A stretch of 64,000 nucleotides of DNA from the NCBI RefSeq assembly GCF_025118155.1, contig NW_026251403.1, positions 463,001 through 527,000 on the forward strand. The letters are read 5' to 3'. Below are positions 17,312 through 50,988 of the stretch, one piece after another. Every line of letters begins with the position of its first letter. Within the stretch, counting starts at the first letter, position 1. The notes under the pieces were generated by a model. The model did not search any database. It saw only the letters and a list, made by a program, of their open reading frames with translations, and was not told the origin of the DNA. Source of the stretch: Cokeromyces recurvatus (Eukaryota; Mucoromycota; Mucoromycetes; Mucorales; Mucoraceae). A program made the position numbers and the translations under genes.

Positions 17312-18720
17312 TCAGCGAAGACAACGATCGAAAAATGAAACTGAATGCCTTGTCCATCCTTTACAGTCTGCTAGAGTAACTTCAGAACATGCTTCTATAA
17401 TTTGAGGAGTCAATGCATCACTGCCATCGAAAGGTCGTCTTTTGACATTATATTTTTCTTTCGACCAAAACTCTTCAATAGGATTAAGAAATGGTGAGTA
17501 TGGTGGAAGATAAGCACATTTGTAACTTCTTTTCTCAATGAACCCTCTCACAATGACAGGCTTATGTATAGGAGCATTATCCATGATAACGTAGTAACTT
17601 TTCATCTCATTTTTGTCAAGAATATCCATCGCATTACTCAAATAGTTCAAAGAATGTTCGGTTCTTGTGCCTATTTTTGCTGTTGTAGCTATTATTTTCC
17701 CATCTGCGTTTCTCTTTTTAGTTCCAGCGACAATAACAGGTTTTCTCCGAGAAATATCAATAACACCTTGGTTCGAAATAGCGCCAAGAATAGTGATTGT
17801 AGTTTCCTTGCTCTTTGGAATTACAGTTTTTGCTGGCTCGCCCGCTTTTGACCAACCTCTTGTACGACTGATATGTAAATTAAAACCGGCCTCATCTATG
17901 AAAACACAATTCTTTTCAAAATCCATTTCATTATTAGATAACCATGATTCAACAGTAGTTTTTTCTTTTCAAGAGGTTCCCATCCGAATTTCGATATTCA
18001 GTAAGTTTTTCTAGTTTCTTTATGCTTAATGCGCGTTGTTCTTTAACATGGCGATAAAACTGGCTTTTCGAAATAGAATTATCAGGATATTGTTCGATAA
18101 GCTTTTCCTTCAACTGCTCTAAGGTCATTGGTGCAAAATTATCGATAAGTTTTATGACAAACAACGTGTGTTCTTCCGTTAAAACCTTAAATCGAACTCG
18201 ACCCCTTTGTTTTTTTCTCAGGAACATCTTGAGTTTCATGCCATAACTTTCGATATCGATAAGCAGTTAAAAGAATAATGCCTTTTCTTGTTGCAGCATC
18301 TTTTACCGGTACCTGTTCAACGATTAAACCAATGAAATCGACAATTTGAGAAACCGTATATGATCTGTAAGACGTTGCAGACTTCTTACCCTTAATTTTT
18401 ATAGCACCTGCAAGGTTTTCAGCGAATTTCTCCAGCTTCACCTTCTCATTGTCTTCTTCTTCATACTCGCTATCTTTTTCTTCACTTTGTTTTGTATCTC
18501 CATTTGCTACTTCAAAATCGTTTATAACTTCCTCATCGATTTCCATAGCAGCCTCATCTCGATCAAATGTAAGACGCATCATTGACATCAAACCGGAATA
18601 TACCACGACTGTTTGATCATCAAAGTTTTCAGAATCTTTTAATGACAGATCTTCCTTGTAAATATCTTTTGTCATGTTTAAATTGCTAATGTTTAAAAAA
18701 AGTTGGCTATCAATTATCAC
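17312..18720 (-). pseudogene. DD34E (DDE_3-type) transposase with two frameshifts
   Basis: Three overlapping reading frames make one transposase. Frame 1 (18720-~18210) holds an acidic N-terminus and a helix-turn-helix ending at YRKLWHETQ. Frame 2 (~18210-17960) holds a second HTH. Frame 3 (~17960-17312) holds the catalytic core: FIDEAGF, MDNAPIH and LNPIEEFW, with 34 residues between the second Asp and the Glu. Both breaks fall in A runs on the coding strand (7 A at 18210-18216 and 6 A at 17959-17964). One fewer A in each restores the frame. All catalytic residues are intact, so this is either recently dead or miscounted in assembly. The unbroken protein would be ~465 residues. Confidence 0.85.
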
Positions 18721-21300: not shown

Positions 21301-21971
21301 AGGTGTCGTTATTAAATAAAAAGATGTACAGTAATTATAGATTTTAACCCATACTCTCTCTCTCTCTCCTCTCTCTATATATATATTTGTATACATACAA
21401 GACTGAATATATTCTTTTTATATAAAAGTAAGCACTAAGAGGAATTTGCATAATAATATGTATATTAGGGCTGATTTCTTCCCTTCTTGTAATAATTTGG
21501 TATAAAGGGAATAAAACAAAATAAAATAAACAAAAAGGATATAAGTGTACACATTATTAATATTTTAGCACTGTATGCCTAACAGTTTCTTTTAAAGTCT
21601 AATGTTATTTATAAATTAAGAAAAGACCGAACAGCAACTGTTACTACTACTGTCATTGTAGTTAAGCTTGATACGTAGCATATACAGATTGTATACGATT
21701 TAAGTAATACTATTATACAAATGAAAGAAAAACAAACCTATTCTGTTATAATTTAATATATAATAATATACTACAGCAATAGAAGTTGGCAATTGCAATT
21801 ACTACAAGGAAGCACAACAAAAAAAAAAAAAAAAAAAAAAAAAAAACAAAATATATCGGAAATTAAATTAAACACAATACTACTGGACAAGAACGGAAGG
21901 ATCACGTGATACTTTCCTAATTAAGAAGGTACAAATTTATGATATTTTTGACGATTTTTTAATCATCAGAT
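21301..21971. other. Intergenic
   Basis: Holds a CT/TA microsatellite at ~21353-21390 and a ~28-base A run near 21820. No gene seen. Confidence 0.5.
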
Positions 21972-22045
21972 GGTTTCTTGGTGTAGTTGGTTATCACGCC
22001 TGCTTAACACGCAGGCGGTCGCCAGTTCGAGTCTGGCAGAAATCA
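21972..22045 (+). tRNA. tRNA-Val (anticodon AAC)
   Basis: Full cloverleaf. The acceptor stem GGTTTCT pairs with AGAAATC (one G-U). The D arm contains the A box GTGTAGTTGGT. The anticodon stem CCTGC/GCAGG holds the loop TTAACAC with anticodon AAC. The T arm is GCCAG-TTCGAGT-CTGGC with a B box. The discriminator base is A at 22045, and CCA is not encoded, as expected in a eukaryote. There is no intron, and a run of six T soon after serves as Pol III terminator. Confidence 0.95.
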
Positions 22046-23145
22046 TCTTTTTTTACATTTTTTATATCGTATTTTATCTTTATATCGTTTATTCAACAAA
22101 TTATGTAGAGTGCCTCTTTTACTTTTATGATGTGACAACATTAGCAAGTTCTATTATTATTATTTGTTGGTATTATGATAAAACCTTTATCTTTAAATTA
22201 ATTCAGTACTAAATAAAATAAGAAAGCATTTTTGCTCTATTAACTCGAAGTAACAATATGCCTAAACATGGATCTTAAATCACATGAATATGAATTTTTT
22301 TTTTCTTGCTATAATTAAAACTAATAGTATATAAAAAAGGATACAAAGAAACTTGTGAGCCAAAAAAAAAAAAAAAAAAAAAAAAAAAAACGAAATAGAA
22401 TATTGATTTTCAAAAATATGAAGTAATATTAAAGAATTCTCATTAGAGACACTCTTAAATTTTGACACTTTCCTCATTTTGTAAATGTTTGTTTGTATCT
22501 AACAAGCTTGCACTATATTCTTCACATTTTTCCTGATTTTAAACTCGCTATAAATAGGAAAAAAGAAGTAATATAATATATTTGCGATAGTGAGGTGTAA
22601 AAGTATACATGTATAAAATATTTTTTTTTAAGATTTACTTATTAAGCGGTAAAAAAAGTAGAAAATATAAACAAAAAGGATTGATTTTTTTTTCCCAGTA
22701 AGCATCTACGTACTATTTTTGAATTTGCAGACATTTTGATATCAAATTCTAATGAAGATAATTGTTATTCTTATTATTGACTATGTATGCCATTCTTTGA
22801 CACTAGCATATTTCTTCTTTGATTTATCATAATGATAATTTATTATACTTTTTCTAACATGCATCAAACAGTCAAAGTATATTTTAATATGCATAAATAA
22901 GAAAAGTGATAGGCTCTGATATGCATACTTTCATAATATACATGTATATATATATACGGTTACTGATATTAATACAATATTAAAATAGAATGCGATGGTA
23001 TAAAACTGCATCAGTTTTTATGTTTATGTTCAATATAAATTCATATAAAACTGAAAAATAAATAACAATAGATTAACAGTAAATCTATCTTTTCTATACT
23101 AACTAATTATATATATATATGTATATAAAAGACCTCTATGCATTT
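22046..23145. other. Intergenic
   Basis: AT-rich spacer with a ~30-base A run at ~22361-22390. Predicted short ORFs are poly-Phe artefacts. No gene seen. Confidence 0.5.
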
Positions 23146-38077: not shown

Positions 38078-39083
38078 TCTCAAACAATCTTCCATAACTT
38101 TAAATCATATCTATATCTTGCATAATTTTAATTATTTTTTTTTTGTTCTAAAAAAGAAAAAAACAACAACTGTACATTTCTTTATATCGTCTTGTATCTT
38201 ATTATCACACATATTTGTTATATAGCATATTATTATTTTACCTTTTCTTTTCTTTTATCTTTAATACCTTTACATTTAAAAATAAAATAATAGTAAAAAT
38301 ATGTTCTCAATTATGATTTTTATTATTATTATGAGAGCTATTCCCAAAATTCTTAAAGGTTTTGTTTAATTTTAGAAAAACGTTATCATAAAAGAAAATC
38401 CGATGTAAATGAGCTTGAATATAAATATGTATATGTGTATATATATAAATATATACATTATATAAAGGCAAGTCTAAATGCTTCCAGACTAACATTTCTT
38501 TCCGAAGAATAAATTTGCGTAGATTTAAATTCTTGTGTTGAACGCCTATAATACTATTATATTTTCTTATATCCTGCTCTACAGGAGGGTTGCCCTAATT
38601 ATATCTATATAACACACACACACACACACACACACACAAAGGCCCTATTAATAATTACAGATACGTTAGTCTATCATTTGTCTTTTAATAAAAGTCTTTG
38701 AATACTGCAACATCATAACTTTTAATTTGGATATAATCTAGGGGACTAAAGAAGCTTCCTTTAACAAACTCAATATTTTTATGAACCATGCCGGATGAGA
38801 CAAATATTTATTTTATAAATAAATAGCCTATTATCGTGTATGTTTTTTTCTTTTGGTTATAAAATCTGCATTTGATATGTAACTGACATTTTTATATCTA
38901 GAATTATAGTTTTATCTTTACTTATCGGGGTTATTGACACAATTACATAATGATGTCTATATTGAACAATGTATACATCTTTTCAATTTTAACTTTCCTT
39001 TTAACTTTCCTTTTTTCTTTTTTTTTTAACTGGTAGCCTGTTAAATCTTTATTCTTGTCTCTTTATATAACAAAAATTATATA
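38078..39083. repeat. Intergenic with (AC)n microsatellite
   Basis: Contains an (AC)13 tract at ~38612-38638 and ATTATT repeats near 38320. No gene seen. It ends at the TA that borders the first terminal inverted repeat. Confidence 0.6.
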
Positions 39084-39399
39084 CTGTGCTTCCACTCTCA
39101 GTTTACCAGATGTTTGAAAACTTTGCTCACTTTTTTGAATTTTTTTTGGATTTAAATTGCCCAACTTTTCGAAAATAAATTGTCTACTTTTTCAACCAAC
39201 CAAAACAGTAAAGCAATCACAAAGATGTCTTTATTCAAGCATTTAGGGATTACATTGATCGAGTGCTGAATGAAGTTTTGTATATATTCAACAGGAATAT
39301 CTTCACTGACTTCAATTATTCTTGAAGAAATTGATTCTGTATCTTTCCATTTCTCTCTTCTAACTCGATCCTTCAGCACTTTCTAAAACATCTCAATAG
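39084..39399 (-). mobile_element. Transposon end: terminal repeat plus transposase 3' end
   Basis: Preceded by TA (39082-39083), the segment starts CTGTGCTTCCACTCTC, the same terminus as the 46.0-50.4 kb element. From ~39148 to 39399 it is the reverse complement of 42832-43086. The 73 shared residues (MLKDRVRREKWKD...) are identical, and I saw no base difference over the coding part. The match stops abruptly at 39399, so this is a fragment cut off by a rearrangement. Confidence 0.85.
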
Positions 39400-40184
39400 A
39401 TGTTGTGTATATAATGATATATTACATAATATCTTATAATATATAGATCAGAGTCATGATGGGCCGAATGATATTGTAGTTATTAGTTGTACACTTTATG
39501 CATACAATATTATTTGATTTCAGTTGATATAAGACATTCTTGTAATGAGAAAAATAATAATATTATAATAAATACTAACATTACGAGATAATGATAAGCC
39601 AGACAGTAGTGTAAAGAGTTATTAATGATAAAGACATATATGAATTATAGACTGTACCTATTAGTTATATATATACACATTATTATAATATTATCTAATA
39701 TACTAATTTATGAATACAATCATATACTATCTATACACTATACAATATAATGATATTCATTCAAGTAGTATATTGAGAAATGAATATATACATTATAAGT
39801 ATCTTCCCTATATCATTCACAAGTATGAACAAACGAGATTTCATTATTTGGTTTCAAGAAAAATGACCGGCTAGATCAAGCACCAATAATTTAATATTTA
39901 TTAGAGTTAACTGAGATTAATTCTCAGTCAGGGCAAAGACTAGAGCTCAAACACAATAACTTTAATTATTCTGTGGGAAAATATTCCTCTTTCAAGATAT
40001 CTTCATTCTGTTCCTGTCACAAAGTAACCCTGTTCTCCACAAGATCCATTTTGCACTCATTTTTGAGAAATTCAATTTTAATTCAATTTTTTATTTTATT
40101 CAATTTATAATAAAAATTTTATACAAAGTTTTCACAGATTTATTCTGTCTTTTTTTTGTTTTTTTTTTATATCTACCTTATCAA
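39400..40184. other. AT-rich filler between transposon fragments
   Basis: Many ATAT/TATA and ATATTATA strings and no ORF. Possibly a degenerate repeat element, but no terminal repeats were found. Confidence 0.4.
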
Positions 40185-40696
40185 CAATTTTCAAGATCAT
40201 CGAATATAGTATCGATCAAGGACCACACACGCGCAATGTACCATGATTCCTTATGAACAGTTTTCAAATTTCCTAATTCATACAGTCTTACAAAGGAATG
40301 GATGGTGTGTTTGGCCGAATCCAAATCATGATCCTTATCAATACTATAATTTATTTCCCAATCCTACGCCTTCAAGAGCTCAGCTCGTAGATCTTCAACA
40401 TTTCTAAGATTGAATGCATTGATATAAGTTGCAAGTTTTTCTGGTATAGAGTTGATGAATTGAATAGGGTTCTTTATCTTCATCTTCTCGATCTCTACTC
40501 CTGTAAACACACATTCCTTCAAATAATTTTTATCTTCCAAATCTAAAATCATGGAGCAAGCTGGGTGGTCCGCAAGATATTGCTTCCCAAATTCGTACAA
40601 AGCGTCTTCAACGATTTTACCGGTCGAGAGTTTCCATTTCTTTTCTTTTTCAAGTTTACTAAAAACTGCTTCAATCTCTGGATGTTTGCAAGACAC
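40185..40696 (-). pseudogene. Decayed member of the element-borne KW-x-LS-x-GK gene family
   Basis: An ORF at 40696-40364 reads EKKWKLSTGKIVEDALYEFG and later HPACSMILDLEDKNY. After an in-frame TAG at 40364-40366 the same frame continues with HTIHSFVRLYE and WYIARVWSLIDTIFDD to ~40185. Each block aligns by eye with the gene at 46.4-48.1 kb (KWYLSNGK...EDEL, HPCHSFIVD, YSFVREYE, WYKAHVWHFLDTVFNN). The C-terminal half of the family is missing. Function unknown. Confidence 0.7.
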
Positions 40697-41680
40697 TGAA
40701 TAAAATATCTTACGTTAGTGGGTGTTTCATGAGTATAATAAGCTTAACGTAATGACTTGCCGTGGGTACTGAGTAAGCGTTCGCCTAGTTCATCTAAATC
40801 TTCCTTGTAAACATTACAGCAAAGGCAAGCATATTGCTTATTAAAGGTCGTCTAATAATTTGGTTTAGTAAATCAATTGAAGCACAATGTGTCTGTTTTA
40901 AATACAAAAGATAAGGAAAGAGTAAACAGAAAAGACAAGTCCGTGAAAACTCTGTATAGTTCATTAGAAGAGGGAAAAAAAAAAATACAAAAATTGTGCC
41001 AAGGAAAATAACATGGAAAAATGACAAGGGTTATTTATATGTTTTTGCAAAGCATGATTTGGATAAGTGAATACTGCTATAATAAAGCATTATATGTAAA
41101 TGTTGTCAATGTAAATGTTGTCAGTGTGGATATTGTCTCCGAACAATCCTGCTTGTAATAAGATATATTTTTATCTTTATTCTCTCTGAGCTGTCGTTGT
41201 TACTAAAAATATACCCGACTATTATTTCTGAGATAAGTGTTAATATTAATTCACAGTGAATATTCCCGCTATAACAATACAAATTATTTATATGCTACTA
41301 TTATTATTATTATCATTCTCTAAGATGTTATTACATAACAATATTCAACATTATAGATGCATATATATAATATGTATGACTTGTATAGATAATTTTGTAA
41401 TTGCATATAACATTCATAACCCTATTGAATTCTTATAATTACATATTATGATGTATATAATTATTTTGTTTAATGCTCGAATACTCTAACAATGACTGTT
41501 ATTAAAACCGGATGTAGAATAAATATTATGCTGTGAAGTACAATACACTAGTTTTATCTGAATAACCTCTTCGCTATTTAAATAAATGATGGTTTATTTC
41601 TATTAACTTGGTTGTAAAGACGACTACAATCATAACAGACTACTTTTCTTATTTTATTATTGTATCCATTGTGTTTTGAG
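40697..41680. other. Spacer inside the mobile region
   Basis: No gene supported. The part to ~41030 may hold remains of upstream exons of the pseudogene (in one frame EDLDELGERLLSTHGK), with stops. TGTTGTCAATGTAAATGTTG at ~41100 is a small direct repeat. Confidence 0.4.
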
Positions 41681-43079
41681 ATGAATTTCTTTTATGAAGA
41701 TGACAGAGGCGGGATTGTGGATGATTCTGGTAACGAAGCGGCTGCTTTCGTTGTAGATTTGTCCTTTCAATTAGCTAATTTGACGAATCTACACAAGTTC
41801 ATTAAAAATAAAAATAAAAAGTCATCGTAGAAAACGAAGAGCCAAAAAGACACGGATATGTAGGAAGCAACCGTCAAGAAGGAAAGAAGCTCAACTTATA
41901 ACATCTATACAAACAAAGATCGACTACGATATATCTTTTTTCCTGCATGAAAAGTTGATGAAACACACTGAGACAGTTAAAGTAGCCAACGTTAATCCTG
42001 AGACTGCGAGAAAGTGGAAGAGAGAAATCACGAAAGACCCTGAGAAGAAGATACCCTTTTAAAAAAAAACGATTCGTACATCAATCAGAGCACCAAGTCA
42101 ACTAAATGAGAACCACAAAATGCACTTGATCAACTTTTTCGATGAGAATCCCTCAACTGTTATCCAATCCAGGATGCAGTCGAAAATTTAACCAAAAGCT
42201 TTGAAGGTTTGGAAATGGAAATAAAAAAAGAGTAAGGTTGTTGAATTGGTGAAAGAGGATTGCAATTTCAGTATAAAAGTTGTCACCCGCCATTCCAAGG
42301 AGAGAAATAGTCAGACGACTCTTGAGGCTCGCGCAAACTGGATTGAAGAAAAATGGCAAAACAAAGGTTTGCTTTTTATAAAGAATTGTGTTTTCCTTGA
42401 TAAAGCAAGATTCGATGTAAATATGCGTCGTTCAAGAGGTTGGGCACAGCATGGTAAACCAGCAATTGAGGAAACAACTTCTGCGAGGGGTATATCACAT
42501 ACAGTTATTGGTGCAGTTTCAGCATTTGGTGTTGTGAATGTAAACATGAGAGGGCCGGGCAATGTCAAGAAAAGAAGCGTTGTTAGTGCTAAAAAGAGAA
42601 AAACACCTAAGGATGCTGTTGCTGCTATACCAAAAGGAACTACAGTTGGCCACTTTGTGCAAATTCATTAGGGATACTTTAGACATTATGGATGAATTTT
42701 CCAACATGAAAGGATTTCATATGATTATGGATAATGCACCGATCCATTCTTGTAATATCGTTGACCTTATCATTTTAGAAAGGTTTTTTATATACCAGTA
42801 TACATCCCTCCATATTTGCCTAAACCCAATCCTATTGAGATGTTTTAGAAAGTGCTGAAGGATCGAGTTAGAAGAGAGAAATGGAAAGATACAGAATCAA
42901 TTTCTTCAAGAATAATTGAAGTCAGTGAAGATATTCCTGTTGAATATATACAAAACTTCATTCAGCACTCGATCAATGTAATCCCTAAATGCTTGAATAA
43001 AGACATCTTTGTGATTGCTTTACTGTTTTGGTTGGTTGAAAAAGTAGACAATTTATTTTCGAAAAGTTGGGAAATTTAG
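41681..43079 (+). pseudogene. Tc1/IS630-like transposase, heavily mutated
   Basis: From the ATG at 41681 the frame reads an acidic N-terminus, then stops at 41828, 41861 and others. HTH-like pieces (TVKVANVNPETARKWRREI) and the catalytic core follow in shifted frames. At 42390-42450 the usual LDEAGF is LDKARF, so Glu is Lys and Gly is Arg. MDNAPIHS is intact at ~42728. The PIE-x-FW region is frameshifted (~42830). The last 73 codons (42852-43079) are clean. Several nonsense and frameshift mutations make it clearly dead. It belongs to the same broad family as the 17.3-kb element but is a different lineage. Confidence 0.85.
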
Positions 43080-43283
43080 ATTCAAACAATCAGCAAATAA
43101 TTCATTACCTTTTAAATTTTAATATTGTTACTAATTATATTGGCTTTCTTTAAACACTATTTAAAGCAAACAAAACTTCTTTTCATTATTAATTATATGA
43201 GTACCTCTAGATCAAAACATAGGAATGTTAATTATTGGAGGAATATATATGCATATATAATTGGATCAAACTCCTTTAATAAA

Positions 43284-44159
<876 letters not shown>

Positions 44160-45584
44160 TTATATGTCATTACGCTTGACACTTGAATTTCTGCGTCCAC
44201 CATAAGATCGAGAGCTGCTTCGTCGAATTGGAGATCTGTTACGTCTGATGGGTGAACGGCTGCGTCTGATAGGTGAACGACTACGTCTTAAAGATGATCT
44301 TCTACGTCTCAAGGGTGATCTACTACGTCTAATAGGAGATCTACTACGACTCAAAGGGGATCTACTGCGACTCAAAGGGGATCTACTGCGACTTAAAGGA
44401 GATCTACTACGACTAGAAAGTGATCTACTACGACTGGGAGTTAAGCTTCTAGAATAACTTCGGCCTCGTGAATAACTACTACGTCTTCTACGTGAATAAC
44501 TACGTCTTCCACGAGAATAGCTACGTCTTCCACGGGAATAGCTACGTCTATCACGAGAATAGCTGCGTCTATCACGAGAATAACTGCGTCTATCACGAGA
44601 ATAAGATCTCTTTCTTCCTCTAGAATAGCTGGGGCTAGGGGATCTTGAGCGAGAGTAAGAATAACGTCTTCCGCGGCGAATAGGTGAGCGAATAGGTGAG
44701 CGAATAGGTGAACGAGAATAACGTCTAACTCTATCTCTACCACTACCAAAACGATCTCCACGTTGACTCATTGCTAGAGGACCACGATTACTAAGTCTTC
44801 TATAAGGAGGTGGAGAATAGCGTCCTAAAATATTTATTTTAGTAAATTAATCATTTTTTATCTAATAAGAACTTACCTCTACGAGGTGAAGGTGATCTTT
44901 TACGATATTTAGGAGCTACAACACAATCAAGTCTTTTACCATCTAATTGCGCCTAAACATATACATCAATTGTTAATCATTTTTCCAAATAAATAATATA
45001 TATAATTACATTATCCATATAACTTAAAGCTTTATCAGCGTCTTCTTGTGTTTCAAAATCAATATATGCTTTTCCCTTGTTGGTATTTACTATTTGTTAT
45101 TATATACATATATAGTTATTCTATTTTTATTTTTTGCACTCTTTATTCATTCATCTTTAACTGTTAATTACTTACAGGTTTTGTTGAAAGGGAATTCAAG
45201 GTGAGTAATTTTACCAAACTGACTAAAAATCTCTCTTATATGTTCTTCTTTTACATTGCGCGTCAAATTGGTGACAAGAATCGAATGCAGATGCTCTGGA
45301 CTAGCAGATCGTGAACGGCTACGGCGAGTAGGAGATTTGGAGCGTGGTGAGTGTGAACGGCCTCTTGAAGTAGAACGGCGGCGAGGAGAAGGTGATCTGG
45401 AATGTTGAGATCTTGGGGAAGCCCTGTTTTATATAATTAAAATTGAACAAAAAAAAAGTATTAAATATAAAAAATAGAGTAGAATGCTTTTTCTTTTTCT
45501 TTTTCTCTCTCTCTCTTTTTTTTATTCATAAATCTTTGAATAAAGAAAAATAGAATGAATTGATAAAGAATTATTTTCTTACAT
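44160..45584 (-). CDS. RNPS1-like SR splicing factor (RRM plus RS domain)
   Basis: Five exons (complement): 45584-45583, 45423-45176, 45089-45010, 44952-44877, 44824-44160; 356 residues. The start codon itself appears split: AT ends exon 1 and G begins exon 2 (AT|GTAAGA...AACAG|GGCT). No other in-frame Met precedes the RRM. An N-terminal RS stretch (1-45) is followed by one RRM (~48-130) with SILVTNLTRNV, IFSQFGKI and GKAYIDFE. TRNV and the overall plan match RNPS1, a nuclear splicing activator of the EJC/ASAP complexes. The C-terminus (~165-350) is a long RS domain of SYSR(D/G)RR and RSRSPLS repeats. Confidence 0.85.
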
Positions 45585-46017
45585 TGTAAATTTAAGTATT
45601 AAATGCTCGACTTCTACAAAAGAAGAAGAAGGAAAAGTAGGGAAAAAAAGACTACAAATTAGGTGACGTTAAGAAACAGTCACACTATTATTTCTATTAT
45701 TATTTTTATTTTGAAGAAATGAGGACATTTGTTGTTAGAATTAAGTTAATTTTCAGATGAGGGAAACTGTATTCAAGGTAACAAAATAAAAGATGTATTT
45801 TATTTGAGGTGTCTATCAAAGTACATTATTTATTTGTCAAAGTGTTAGGGGAAAAAAAAATGATTAAGTCTGATAATGAAAACAAGACTTACAATAACAA
45901 TAGTACTAAATATTTTCGGATGAAATGTAGACTAGTTCCATAATTTTTTTAAATCAATCAATAAAAATTTGAGAAGAAGCAAAAATAGATTTAGACAAAA
46001 TAAAACTAGTTTTTAGA
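45585..46017. promoter_or_regulatory. RNPS1 upstream region up to the transposon border
   Basis: 433 bp with no gene. The TIR element begins immediately after, so the promoter of the SR-protein gene lies within ~430 bp of a mobile element. Confidence 0.5.
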
Positions 46018-46019
46018 TA

Positions 46020-46156
46020 CTGTGCTTCCACTCTCAATTTACTGACTTTTTGAAAATACTGCCTACTTTTTTGAGAAAAATTGCACATTGTGCGAGGCTA
46101 ATTTGCCCAACTTTTTGAATATAGATTGATCAGCTTTCACGAATAAGTTGGCCAAT
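46020..46156 (+). repeat. Left terminal inverted repeat of the 4.4-kb element
   Basis: Begins right after TA. Contains an inner palindrome GCACATTGTGC (~46083-46093). Confidence 0.9.
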
Positions 46157-46366
46157 ATTTTGAATTCTTATAGTAACAAAGGATTATACACAAAAATGAG
46201 CATCTCTTATGAAGATGGAAAAATAACTCTTTTAGAAAACACGAAAATGCATAATAGTAGAAAAGCATTGTTTTTTTTAACATTTGAGAAAATATAATTT
46301 TACTACCTATAATTTACTTTTCCTCGTTATCCATATAAGTATTGTTTTGCTTACATGTACAACTAT

Positions 46367-48094
46367 TTAACGCATGTTTTTAATTTTTTTGTTGCTCCTA
46401 TTTGAAGTCACAGAGCTAGTGCTAGTCTCAGGCATAACAGATGGTTTAGAAGACGTCCAATATGTTTCTAGCCAACTTGAATCAGCATTGCTGACAGCAG
46501 TAGGTGAGGTAGGTAACAACAGTAAGACTCTCTTCACAATTTCTCTAGCAAGCCAAGCGGAGTTCATGGATGGTAATACAGTAGGACCGAAGTTGGATAT
46601 GTCGCTGCTAATATGAACGGAACGGACTCTTGTTATTCTTTTTACATACGGGGTAGGACGATCAGCTCTGATAAAGCGAGATTGTAATCCCGAGTGTATA
46701 AAACCAACAACTTCAATGTCAGCTATTGCTTGAATGTTCATTGCTAGATTGTCCAGCATATCTTTTAGACATTTTGGCAGCTTGATATATCCTTTAATGA
46801 GTTTTTTGATTGCATCGTCACCATCGTAATCTTTGCCAGTTTCTGTGGCTCCGGATTCGAGGACATTATCGTGGTTGCATACTAACTTGCGGAATATTAT
46901 GTCACATTTGGAACCAATTTTCTTTGTTACAAGTGAGTCAATGGCTCCAATAGACCTATCCTTGTTCTTTCTCTTACTAGAGGAAAAACTTGTTTTTTCA
47001 CCTCTAAAATAAGCAGAGTTAACCCTTTATAAAATTGAATAAAAGAAATTCAATGTAGCTTACCTTAGTATTTCTATCTCACTTACGTTGTTGAATACTG
47101 TATCTAGAAAATGCCATACGTGTGCTTTATACCATTCTTCACTATGTGGTCGTTTAAAACTTTCGGATTCGTACTCTCTTACGAAAGAATAAACGGTAAA
47201 TCTAATCCAATCCATGTCTTGAGAATAATTTTCATCCAATTGCTCTGGTGTAAAAATTTTCTGACGTAAAGCAGTTGTGATAGTGAGATTGTATTTATTG
47301 AAATAGTCACGTAATTTAGTAGGCATGGTTGGCAGCTTCTTCTCTCCAAACGACCCGATTTCCTGCAATTCATCATCACTGAACACTCGATATTTCTGAT
47401 AGTTGGCATCAGTCGGATCTACGATGAAGGAGTGACAAGGGTGCTCTTCATTGCATTGCATCCCAAAAACGAAAAGTTCATCCTCCATACATTTACCATT
47501 AGACAGATACCATTTTTCTTCGGCTTTCATTTTATTGAAGCTTCTTTCAAATTTCATTTTGGGATCGTCACTTGGTATATTCAAAAGATTTTTAGTTTGT
47601 TCAGTATCTTTTTGCTCGTTTTGTTCGTCGGTTTCATTGGTACCATCATCAGTTTTTTCATGGTTTTCTTCAAGAGCTTCTTCTTGTGTTTTTTGATTTT
47701 CAGCAAGTTGTTCGTTAGTAAATTCTACCGCGTTTTGAACATCAAAAAGTTTCTCGGAATAAAATAAAGATCGACGGCGGATTGAATAAAAATGAATTTT
47801 GACAGCTTGATCATCAAAGAACTTTAAAAAAAATAACTTAGTATCACATTCAAATGATTGAAAGCTTCATACCTACATCCAATTTGTGCTTTTTCACGCG
47901 CCTTGTCCATAGAATCAAATCCTTGTCATTTTTTTTTTTTTTGCTTTTAGAGAACGGTTTGAAATTGACTTGATTGCATCATAAAATTCTCTTTTAGCAT
48001 CTTGTAAACTTTTTAACTTTAACACACGAGAAAATTGAAGAACACTAAAGTTGAAATAGTGTTTTTCGATGTATTCCACAGCTCTTAAATTCAT
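46367..48094 (-). CDS. Element-borne gene of unknown function (KW-x-LS-x-GK / KLPK family)
   Basis: Exons (complement): 48094-47877, 47821-47064, 47003-46367; GTAGGT and GTAAGC donors, AAAG and TTTTAG acceptors, ~538 residues. Exon 1 has a 14-A run (47929-47942) that is one base off frame, so it is either miscounted or disabling. The N-terminus has FSVLQFSRVLKLKSLQDAK then WTRRVKKHKLD-FFDDQ. The middle is acidic and Gln/Glu-rich. Next come EEKWYLSNGK...EDELFVFG, HPCHSFIVD and WYKAHVWHFLDTVFNN. Exon 3 starts GEKTSFSSSKRKN, then GSKCDIIFR, KLPKCLKDML and VVGFIHSG, and ends basic (KKIKN). No domain is recognised. The D-IIFR ... E ... K-LPK layout faintly recalls PD-(D/E)XK nucleases; this is speculation. 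An ATATAG acceptor just upstream (48106) leaves room for another 5' exon. Confidence 0.6.
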
Positions 48095-48235
48095 TGGTAG
48101 TATATCTATATGCAGAAAAGAGAATGGTCTGTCTTTTTTTTTTTTTTTTTGAAAATTGACTACGTAAGCAATTTCTCAATTCCAAATGCCTTTTAACTAG
48201 GGGGAATATACATACACTGCAAAAAATTTATTCGT

Positions 48236-48340
48236 CGTACGTATGGAGTACTATACGGTGTACTATACATCGTACTCACGTACTGCATATATGGTGTACG
48301 GTACGTCGTACGTGCGTACGCCGTATAGTACTCCATACAT
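48236..48340. repeat. GTAC-rich palindromic cluster
   Basis: Perfect 18-bp inverted repeat GTATGGAGTACTATACGG (48241-48258) / CCGTATAGTACTCCATAC (48321-48338). The 62-bp loop is itself full of CGTAC, GTACG and TATAC words. The composition is wholly unlike its surroundings. Confidence 0.85.
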
Positions 48341-48938
48341 ACAACACATAACTTTTTACATTTGATTGGCTATTTTTTTTTTTGAAAAACATGAACCATC
48401 ATTGGTATTTTGCAGAATAAATAATGTTTATTTACGTTTGATCTTTATTACTTACTGGCTTATAAAATATATTTAATACATATTAGGCTTTTATTATTGC
48501 CTTGTTTATTAGACATTATTTATAAATAAACATATAGTTTGCTTACATAAAATGTGACTTTATTTACATTTAGAATAGTAATAATAATAATAATGGCATA
48601 TATAGCAAATGAATTATTACAAAAAATAAATTGCTTTTGAAATAATAATAATAATAAAAAAAAAGAATATTTCTTACAATAATTAATAATAGAAAATAGG
48701 ATTGCACTCACTTACCTTTGCATCTTTAAAAAGAAATAGTACTATTACGCAGCAAATAGATACAAATAAATAAGAGAAAAAGACAGAGATAATGATGATA
48801 GGGGTCTAAGAGGTTAAATTATAGCAGTTAAACAGAAGCAAAATAAACAATCTATAATAAACAAAATTGATTAGTTAGTAAAAAATAAAAAAATAAAAGA
48901 GTATTGTTATTCAAAAGAATAAAATGCTTACCGAAAAC

Positions 48939-48969
<31 letters not shown>

Positions 48970-49734
48970 AAGTCCTAAAAGAAGAGAATAAAAGGCAAGG
49001 TTGGTATATTTTATATTAGACAAAGAAAGTATACTTTTGTAATCAACAGATTAGATAAATGTTATGTTTTAATTTACCTTTTTATATACATTTGTTTATC
49101 TGTTTAAAAAGCGTTTGATTAAAGATAATAGACAAGTTAATATATGTGTTAATATAAAGAACAAGAGTTATAGACAATAGTTATTATCTTACCTTTAACA
49201 TATCATTGAAAAATGCTCTGTATAAAAAGTAGAAAAAGCTACTGCCAACATAAACAAGACTCTTTTGCTAAGAAAGAAATAAAACTGGTCAGTTTAAATT
49301 CGTTAATAAGGATATTCTAAATCTTTATACTACCTTGAATATAATAAATATCTATAGAAAATAAAACAATTGTAAGTAAATAAGTATTAATCTAAAAGAA
49401 TAAAAAGAAATAACAATGAATGTGGAAAGCTAATAATTTTCTCAACTTTCTCTATGATCATATGATTTTCTATAGATCCATTTTTGTAATTTCACAATGC
49501 AAATAGTGTGATTACCCCCCCTTTTTTTTTCTCTCCCTGTAAAAAAAAACACAGCCAAAATAGCTGTAAATTTAAACATTAAAAAAATAATGAATATTAG
49601 CAATAGAAATGTCTTTTTTTTGGATATATTTATTCTATGATAGTATATTAAACATAATGTATTTTTTATTTGGAAGTTTTATATTAAAAATTAGTAGAAA
49701 TAAACAATTAAAAAAAACCGCAGCTTAAATTGTG

Positions 49735-49769
49735 GCGTACGACGTATAGTACTTTTATACGTCGTACGC
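49735..49769. repeat. Perfect 14-bp hairpin, CGTACG-rich
   Basis: GCGTACGACGTATA, a 7-base loop, then its exact reverse complement. It shares the CGTACG/TATAC vocabulary of the 48.24-kb cluster, 1.5 kb away. The two may be the ends of a nested non-autonomous element. Confidence 0.85.
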
Positions 49770-50293
49770 AGCGATAGTATTCTTTTGTTCTCTGGATTTT
49801 TGTAACATACTGAAGGTTAGTTACATGTCACTAAAAGTTAATGTGTTCTTTCTAAGGATTGCTTTCTTATACTGTATTTTAGACATCTCTTTGATTAGAC
49901 TCTTGATTAATAGGCAAAGAAGATACAAACACCTACTTCCAACATAGTGCTTGGGAATTCATAGCTTCTTGCTGTAGATTGTAATGAAGATGTATTTATA
50001 TACTGCTTTTGGCTTCAGTAAGGTGATTCTGACTGAATGCCACTTCATTATGGTAGTCCTTTTAAGCGGTAGTATTGCTGGGTTGTGATTTTTTGAATGC
50101 CTCATACTATGTGCTGAATAAAGGAGTTGTATTCTTTTGTTCTCCGATTTTTTGTGTGGAAACTCTTACTTCAAGAGTTGTTGGAAGCAAAGACACCGTA
50201 ATGGAACCTTTGTCACTTTTTCCCAGTATTCTGCAGATATTCCTTGAATATTTCAATAAACAACTTTATAACCATTTTGACTTTTGACCAGTA

Positions 50294-50430
50294 ATTGGTC
50301 AACTAATTCGTGAAAGCTGGTCAATCTATATCCAAAAAGTTGGGCAAATTAGCCTCGCACAATGTGCAATTTTTCTCAAAAAAGTAGGCAGTATTTTCAA
50401 AAAGTCAGTAAATTGAGAGTGGAAGCACAG
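50294..50430 (-). repeat. Right terminal inverted repeat of the 4.4-kb element
   Basis: Reverse complement of the left repeat with about four substitutions, all in the inner third. Followed by TA. Confidence 0.9.
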
Positions 50431-50432
50431 TA

Positions 50433-50988
50433 TGTTAAGAAAAAAAAAAAACTCCTCTGTGTTTGAGACGGCAATATTATTGTTTCTGGCAAGAGAATGC
50501 AGAAAAACGATCTTGATCAGTTAGTATCTCCTTAGAGTTCGATAAATATTTTTTGCAAGCATTGCAAAAGTTGTAGAATGTTGTAGCAACGTGATTGCAA
50601 GCTAAGACACTATGACAGCCCATTATTGTAGACGTAATTTTTTTTCAAAGCATAAATGGCAAGTCTATTTTATATAAAAGTGGATATGTTAAGCTGGTGT
50701 TAACAGAGCAGTAATAATTTTTTTCACTTTGGAAGTTCTAAATTCATCTATAAAAGGTACAGTCAAATCAGCACGTCTTTGTATATTCAATAATTCTTTC
50801 CACAATATACTTGGTGACTCCTATTCGAACACTTTTAAACTTGACAATATCTATTGAATATTCCATTAAAAATGCTATAACTAGAATTTTCTTCTTATTT
50901 TAAACTTTTTTTTGGTGTCCAATATATACTCCTTTGGTGTCCACTACACAATAAGTATATTATCACTTAGAAAATGCCTGCATTTATT
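50433..50988. other. Intergenic
   Basis: No gene seen between the transposon border and the next gene's stop. Confidence 0.5.

Follow-up and report, generated by a model that had tools for sequence, protein, structure and literature searches.

A 4.4-kb element at positions 46020-50430 of the window studied here is probably a non-autonomous Tc1/mariner-type element in which a gene with a predicted PD-(D/E)XK fold has replaced the transposase body, with a DDE transposase moving the unit in trans and the encoded protein helping the element. The window is the whole stretch of DNA that was analysed, i.e. 64,000 nucleotides of Cokeromyces recurvatus (NW_026251403.1, positions 463,001 to 527,000), and lies in contig C9 of a 28.05 Mb assembly of 64 contigs, the others of which are cited below in the same way. 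The terminal inverted repeats (TIRs) of the element are shared with elements that carry a DDE_3-type transposase, which places it in Tc1/mariner. Since only a weak trace of a transposase tail lies inside, it is at most a non-autonomous member. Its features are as follows.

46018-46019, no strand: left TA (target dinucleotide), from the sequence
46020-46156, plus: left TIR, tip CTGTGCTTCCACTCTC
46367-47003, minus: last exon of the cargo gene, core of the PD-(D/E)XK-like domain (GSKCDIIFR...LESGATETGK)
47004-47063, minus: GT-AG intron of the cargo gene, from the sequence
47064-47821, minus: middle exon of the cargo gene (acidic linker and helical part), 5' limit taken from the splice signal
47915-48096, minus: N-terminal exon of the cargo gene, resembling the start of Rhizopus stolonifer P0003
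48215-49771, plus: nested non-coding interspersed repeat with GTACG-rich palindromic ends, long copies elsewhere in the genome
50105-50254, plus: weak trace of a transposase C-terminus (ETLTSR...), E-value 0.011
50294-50430, minus: right TIR
50431-50432, no strand: right TA

Element boundaries

An earlier note on this DNA had described two inverted repeats of about 137 bp, each adjoining a TA, and both the positions and the two TAs are as it claimed. The inverted arms as a whole span 46012-46156 and 50294-50438 (145 nucleotides, 96% identity). Between 46017-46156 and 50433-50294 there are four mismatches in 140 positions, at 102, 114, 129 and 135 counted from the outer base 46017. The outer 98 bp, which the note had called near-identical, are perfectly identical from CTGTG inward. 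With evenly spread mismatches, the probability of such clustering would be about 0.006. It fits selection on transposase sites; it could also be the result of conversion between the arms, since some units have much longer, near-perfect arms (1399 bp at 99.86% in C64, and 1505 bp at 99.1% in C62, where they extend past the element). The C62 cargo element (L065, C62:466300-473300) is bordered at its two TAs by copies of another Tc1-like element (tip CAGTTAGCGCAACACTAAAGGGCGG) in inverted orientation, and together they form this 1505-bp inverted repeat (99%).

Genome matches at C40, C1:602k, C34:1051k and C1:1254k break off no more than 3 bp from the tip and have different sequence beyond it, indicating a true transposon boundary rather than a local palindrome. 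A DNA search with a query starting at CTG, and so without bias towards TA, gave 11 matches, nine of which extend to the tip. Seven of these nine are preceded by TA (two being the element's own ends), the remaining two by TT and TG. When six joined flank pairs were searched against the fungus's own genome for empty sites, none of the 40 candidates scored, out of 92, spanned a junction; C1:1254k is flanked by a dispersed repeat that stops before the junction, and C62, on both sides, by the end of another Tc1 element.

Recurrence of the ends and their cargo

When up to two mismatches are allowed, the tip TACTGTGCTTCCACTCTC is found 25 times in the genome and the reversed control not at all, so the repeats are not confined to this locus. 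The surroundings of 20 of the 25 tips were read. Six facing pairs, defined as tips within 10 kb of each other, were identified, one of which is the 46020-50430 element itself. The others are:

C62:467565-472090: open frame of 467 amino acids, same gene family as the 46020-50430 cargo
C1:1254083-1256239: open reading frame with GRKIDLLV...LELSSNEFK
C64:553128-558334 and C4:161274-170637: third gene, RPDMKF...CLLIEVK, in both
C4:711683-712972: transposase tail only

A nuclease-like gene thus lies between five of the six pairs, and the recurrence of cargo between such repeats, proposed as a check in the earlier note, was found. Within this one tip family, the recurring genes belong to three different families, all with PD-(D/E)XK-like features. 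The C64 and C4:161k elements have 2.7 kb in common from the tip inward (89.5%). At C1:602k, a unit for which one tip was found, a relative of the C1:1254k gene lies 2.8 kb inside the tip (82% over 72 residues) and has a stop.

The three families comprise 45 loci (24, from two merged searches, plus 14 and 7), eight of which are inside 6 kb of a tip where 0.24 would be expected. Because some queries were taken from inside elements, the count was repeated without the three query loci and with the two C64 arms counted once, giving four of 41 loci against 0.2 expected (P ~6e-5, computed with n = 40). Of the 24 loci in the 46020-50430 cargo family, 21 do not lie inside 6 kb of these tips, many of their flanks being unread, and a few of the 21 are near other or decayed ends: the C63 locus has 40-bp ends (82%), C1:850k has a Tc1-type tip nearby, and about 1.1 kb from C23:6k, by some exons the closest paralogue, there is a decayed L067-type end, its tip lost, which was left out of the tip count. 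The C12:1018k locus lies between a 325-bp inverted repeat, which supports nothing since it is found only there, and at C15 no such inverted ends occur in the 5.3 kb read. C62:858k was not taken as TIR-bounded, as it lies in a palindrome with tandem repeats. At C45 (L066) and at C26 (L033/L074), no more than about 200 bp separate the 3' end of a cargo-family gene from a Tc1-like element of one of two further families, with its own ends.

The cargo gene and its predicted product

The spliced gene that the earlier note saw enclosed by the repeats runs on the minus strand from about 48096 to 46367 and has GT-AG introns. At an A homopolymer, either a mutation or a sequencing error shifts the frame of its first exon relative to the remaining ones, and the annotated product (P0001, uncharacterized protein BX663DRAFT_456665 [Cokeromyces recurvatus]) begins further downstream than this exon. 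The nested repeat accounts for about 1.55 kb of the 4.4-kb element, which would measure about 2.9 kb without it. Copies of this repeat are present at C40, C63, C34, C2, C16 and other places and are common to units with different cargo genes.

For the cargo, nothing convincing was found in Pfam or among PDB sequences. In predicted models, the protein has the alpha-beta core fold of PD-(D/E)XK (restriction-endonuclease-like) enzymes, with the motif residues kept. The best enzyme matches are the N-terminal nuclease domains of the Type IIG restriction enzymes DrdV and BpuSI, at 7-9% sequence identity; the resemblance concerns the nuclease fold, while the cargo protein has no recognised methylase or target-recognition part. 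The Foldseek matches of the cargo are not significant, nor are the profile-profile links between the cargo families. Across 10 aligned sequences, D354 and E374 are invariant and a K follows at +2 or +3: the C62 copy has an exact E-x-K and the copy of the 46020-50430 element E-T-G-K. Among farther relatives, P0029 has R and P0027 is without the stretch. On the strength of fold and motif, the protein may be an active nuclease. A Fanzor1/TnpB identity was rejected because of the predicted fold and because no OrfB/TnpB Pfam match was obtained for 29 family members at E-values up to 0.1, all rows being at chance level (best 0.012), including two that named Cas9/Cpf1 PI domains.

Purifying selection acts on both cargo gene pairs compared. 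Over 393 codons, the C64 and C4:161k genes have 46 changes in 242 synonymous sites and likewise 46 in 937 non-synonymous sites, giving a ratio of non-synonymous to synonymous change (dN/dS) of 0.23 (Fisher P 4e-11). The cargo relative in a second element of the window (see below) was compared with C26:252719 over 116 codons (dS 0.444, dN 0.116, ratio 0.26, P 1.8e-5); both members carry stops elsewhere, so selection on this pair lay in the past. The compared pieces were chosen for open frames, which leans slightly to low dN/dS, and the 46020-50430 copy is without a close enough partner. Since the cargo genes that can be tested are under purifying selection, their protein most likely helps the element, and a nuclease-like product kept by selection is probably more than freight. 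It could be kept for retention of the element or as a partner of the DDE enzyme.

A host gene family caught by chance between transposase-derived ends, moved in trans and encoding a protein that serves the fungus, would show purifying selection too. The cargo family is widespread in Mucoromycota and, as noted, most of its loci are away from these tips, both of which agree with such a capture. However, random capture should bring random genes, whereas three PD-(D/E)XK-like families sit in one tip family, and the numerous copies have diverged and are frequently disrupted (stops within the matched stretch at eight of 19 places). Capture of a passenger is therefore considered unlikely.

Transposase remnants and origin of the ends

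The second, related element of the window has the same tip and the following features.

39082-39191, plus: left end; the right tip is lost
40187-40714, minus: decayed relative of the cargo gene, 36-41% identity
41639-43001, plus: decayed DDE_3-type transposase, DDE_3 E-value 1.8e-4, under Pfam's cut-off; 34-44% to the intact L036 transposase
42832-43089, minus: right inverted arm, holding a transposase tail, 98.5% to 39142-39399

In this element (39082-43089), the decayed transposase and the decayed cargo relative, on opposite strands, both lie between 258-bp arms. DDE_3-type remnants in same-tip relatives occur here, at C1:519884 and at C49:76194, the latter two being homologous to the L036 DDE_3 protein. 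Clear transposase tails lie near the tips of the second element (39152-39382 and 42849-43079), C1:519884, C49 and C1:1254k, which points to a parent element, and to the 3' end of its transposase, as the source of the cargo units' ends. No intact transposase of its own kind was found in any of the six facing pairs, nor an intact helper with these tips among the 20 surroundings read; the DDE_3 transposase inside C4:161k belongs to a nested unit that has inverted ends of its own.

An intact transposase is found in the L036-L041 type, which has a DDE_3 domain, the tip TA-CAGTGCGTCCGCCGTCAATTG and TTTTTGAAAA sub-repeats. Its tip resembles that of the 46020-50430 element, but these elements measure 1.7 kb and consist of one long transposase frame, without room for cargo. 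Six copies are 99.4-99.8% identical to L036, and the elements were probably active not long ago. Sub-repeats resembling TTTTTGAAAA are found both in the long ends of the cargo units and at the ends of the 1.7-kb families with an intact transposase.

In the favoured course of events, a DDE_3 element would have contributed the ends from the side of its transposase tail, a gene with a predicted PD-(D/E)XK fold would have taken the place of the transposase body, and a DDE_3 transposase produced elsewhere would bind the long ends and insert the unit at TA sites. DDE_3-type remnants in relatives with the same ends are what movement of cargo units in trans would predict. Together with the 25 tips and the five pairs with nuclease-like cargo, they support the trans-mobilised cargo proposed in the earlier note. 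As the surroundings read contained no intact transposase flanked by exactly these tips, the helper might be a related family, an unread copy, or lost. As a guess, the cargo protein might cut DNA around transposition and so favour copying or retention of the element. A similar benefit to the element through cutting has been proposed for TnpB/Fanzor.

In Tn7, TnsA works with TnsB, each cutting one strand. The divergent gene pair of the second element recalls this PD-(D/E)XK and DDE pairing, and nuclease-only and transposase-only shells might be the separated halves of a two-part transposase. This is, however, a single decayed case and lends no support to a shared complex. The two-gene element was also rejected as a general form, since the neighbouring transposases at C45 and C26 belong to separate elements with their own ends. 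With no room for cargo in the six 1.7-kb elements with an intact transposase, these could at most use such a protein in trans, and a two-part transposase is regarded as distinctly improbable. That the cargo gene is itself a new, PD-(D/E)XK-only transposase with inherited DDE_3-like ends no longer in use would agree with its presence in five of six pairs that lack an intact DDE gene of their own family, but is very hard to reconcile with three unlike cargo families on one tip type, DDE_3-type remnants in same-tip relatives and a TA preference that is the habit of DDE Tc1/mariner enzymes.

Other features of the window

A repeat of about 180 bp lies inside or beside three cargo-family genes (window 41454-41638, L018 834-1015 and L020 1981-2162), two of the copies being within an open frame. 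About 0.6 kb to the left of the 46020-50430 element, an arginine/serine-rich frame with a partial RNA recognition motif is found (45168-45428, minus). Apart from the element, the window contains another DDE_3 transposase stretch (17318-17953, minus; Pfam E-value 6e-27) and a tRNA-Val (21971-22047).

Comparison with known systems and implications

Bao and Jurka (2013; PMC3627910) describe Fanzor1 as the sole gene of certain Mariner elements, which have Mariner TIRs and TA target-site duplications, and likewise of MuDr-type elements in Rhizopus, Phycomyces and Mucor, a role for Fanzor being argued there from its long-kept coding capacity. Like the Cokeromyces units, these are described as transposase-less, with DDE-family TIRs and a nuclease-type gene. 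Fanzor, however, is of the RNA-guided TnpB kind, whereas the Cokeromyces cargo has a predicted PD-(D/E)XK fold, no Pfam model and three families on one tip type. According to the same source, the algal-virus elements Mariner-1_OLpv and Mariner-2_PGv encode a restriction-endonuclease-like protein, a Mariner transposase and a methyltransferase. They share with the Cokeromyces units a restriction-endonuclease-like gene in a Mariner element, but keep the transposase and methyltransferase, while the Cokeromyces units have a lost or decayed transposase; the elements read gave no sign of a methyltransferase, although no search was aimed at methyltransferases. In the literature covered, seen in part and with most subscription journals outside it, nothing was found on PD-(D/E)XK genes in transposase-less Mucorales Tc1/mariner elements, a result that speaks only weakly for novelty. 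Apparently new are the enzyme fold, the repeated occurrence of several families on one tip type, and the selection estimates.

It is conceivable, though rather doubtful, that Mucoromycota harbour a persistent nuclease-only class of Tc1/mariner-type elements, in which PD-(D/E)XK families independently became the sole gene through an advantage in replication or retention. This advantage might come from cutting empty or donor sites, or from acting as a TnsA-like partner of a DDE enzyme supplied in trans. Transposase-less elements with nuclease-type genes are already known for Fanzor; if the above holds, the nuclease-only class would be a protein-guided eukaryotic counterpart of TnpB/Fanzor. Independently of this, the recurrence of restriction-enzyme-type genes in the same position, with purifying selection wherever it could be measured, allows the question why transposons carry nucleases to be tested in moulds that can be cultured and in a second, unrelated enzyme fold, and some unnamed Mucoromycota protein families would gain a likely home in mobile elements.
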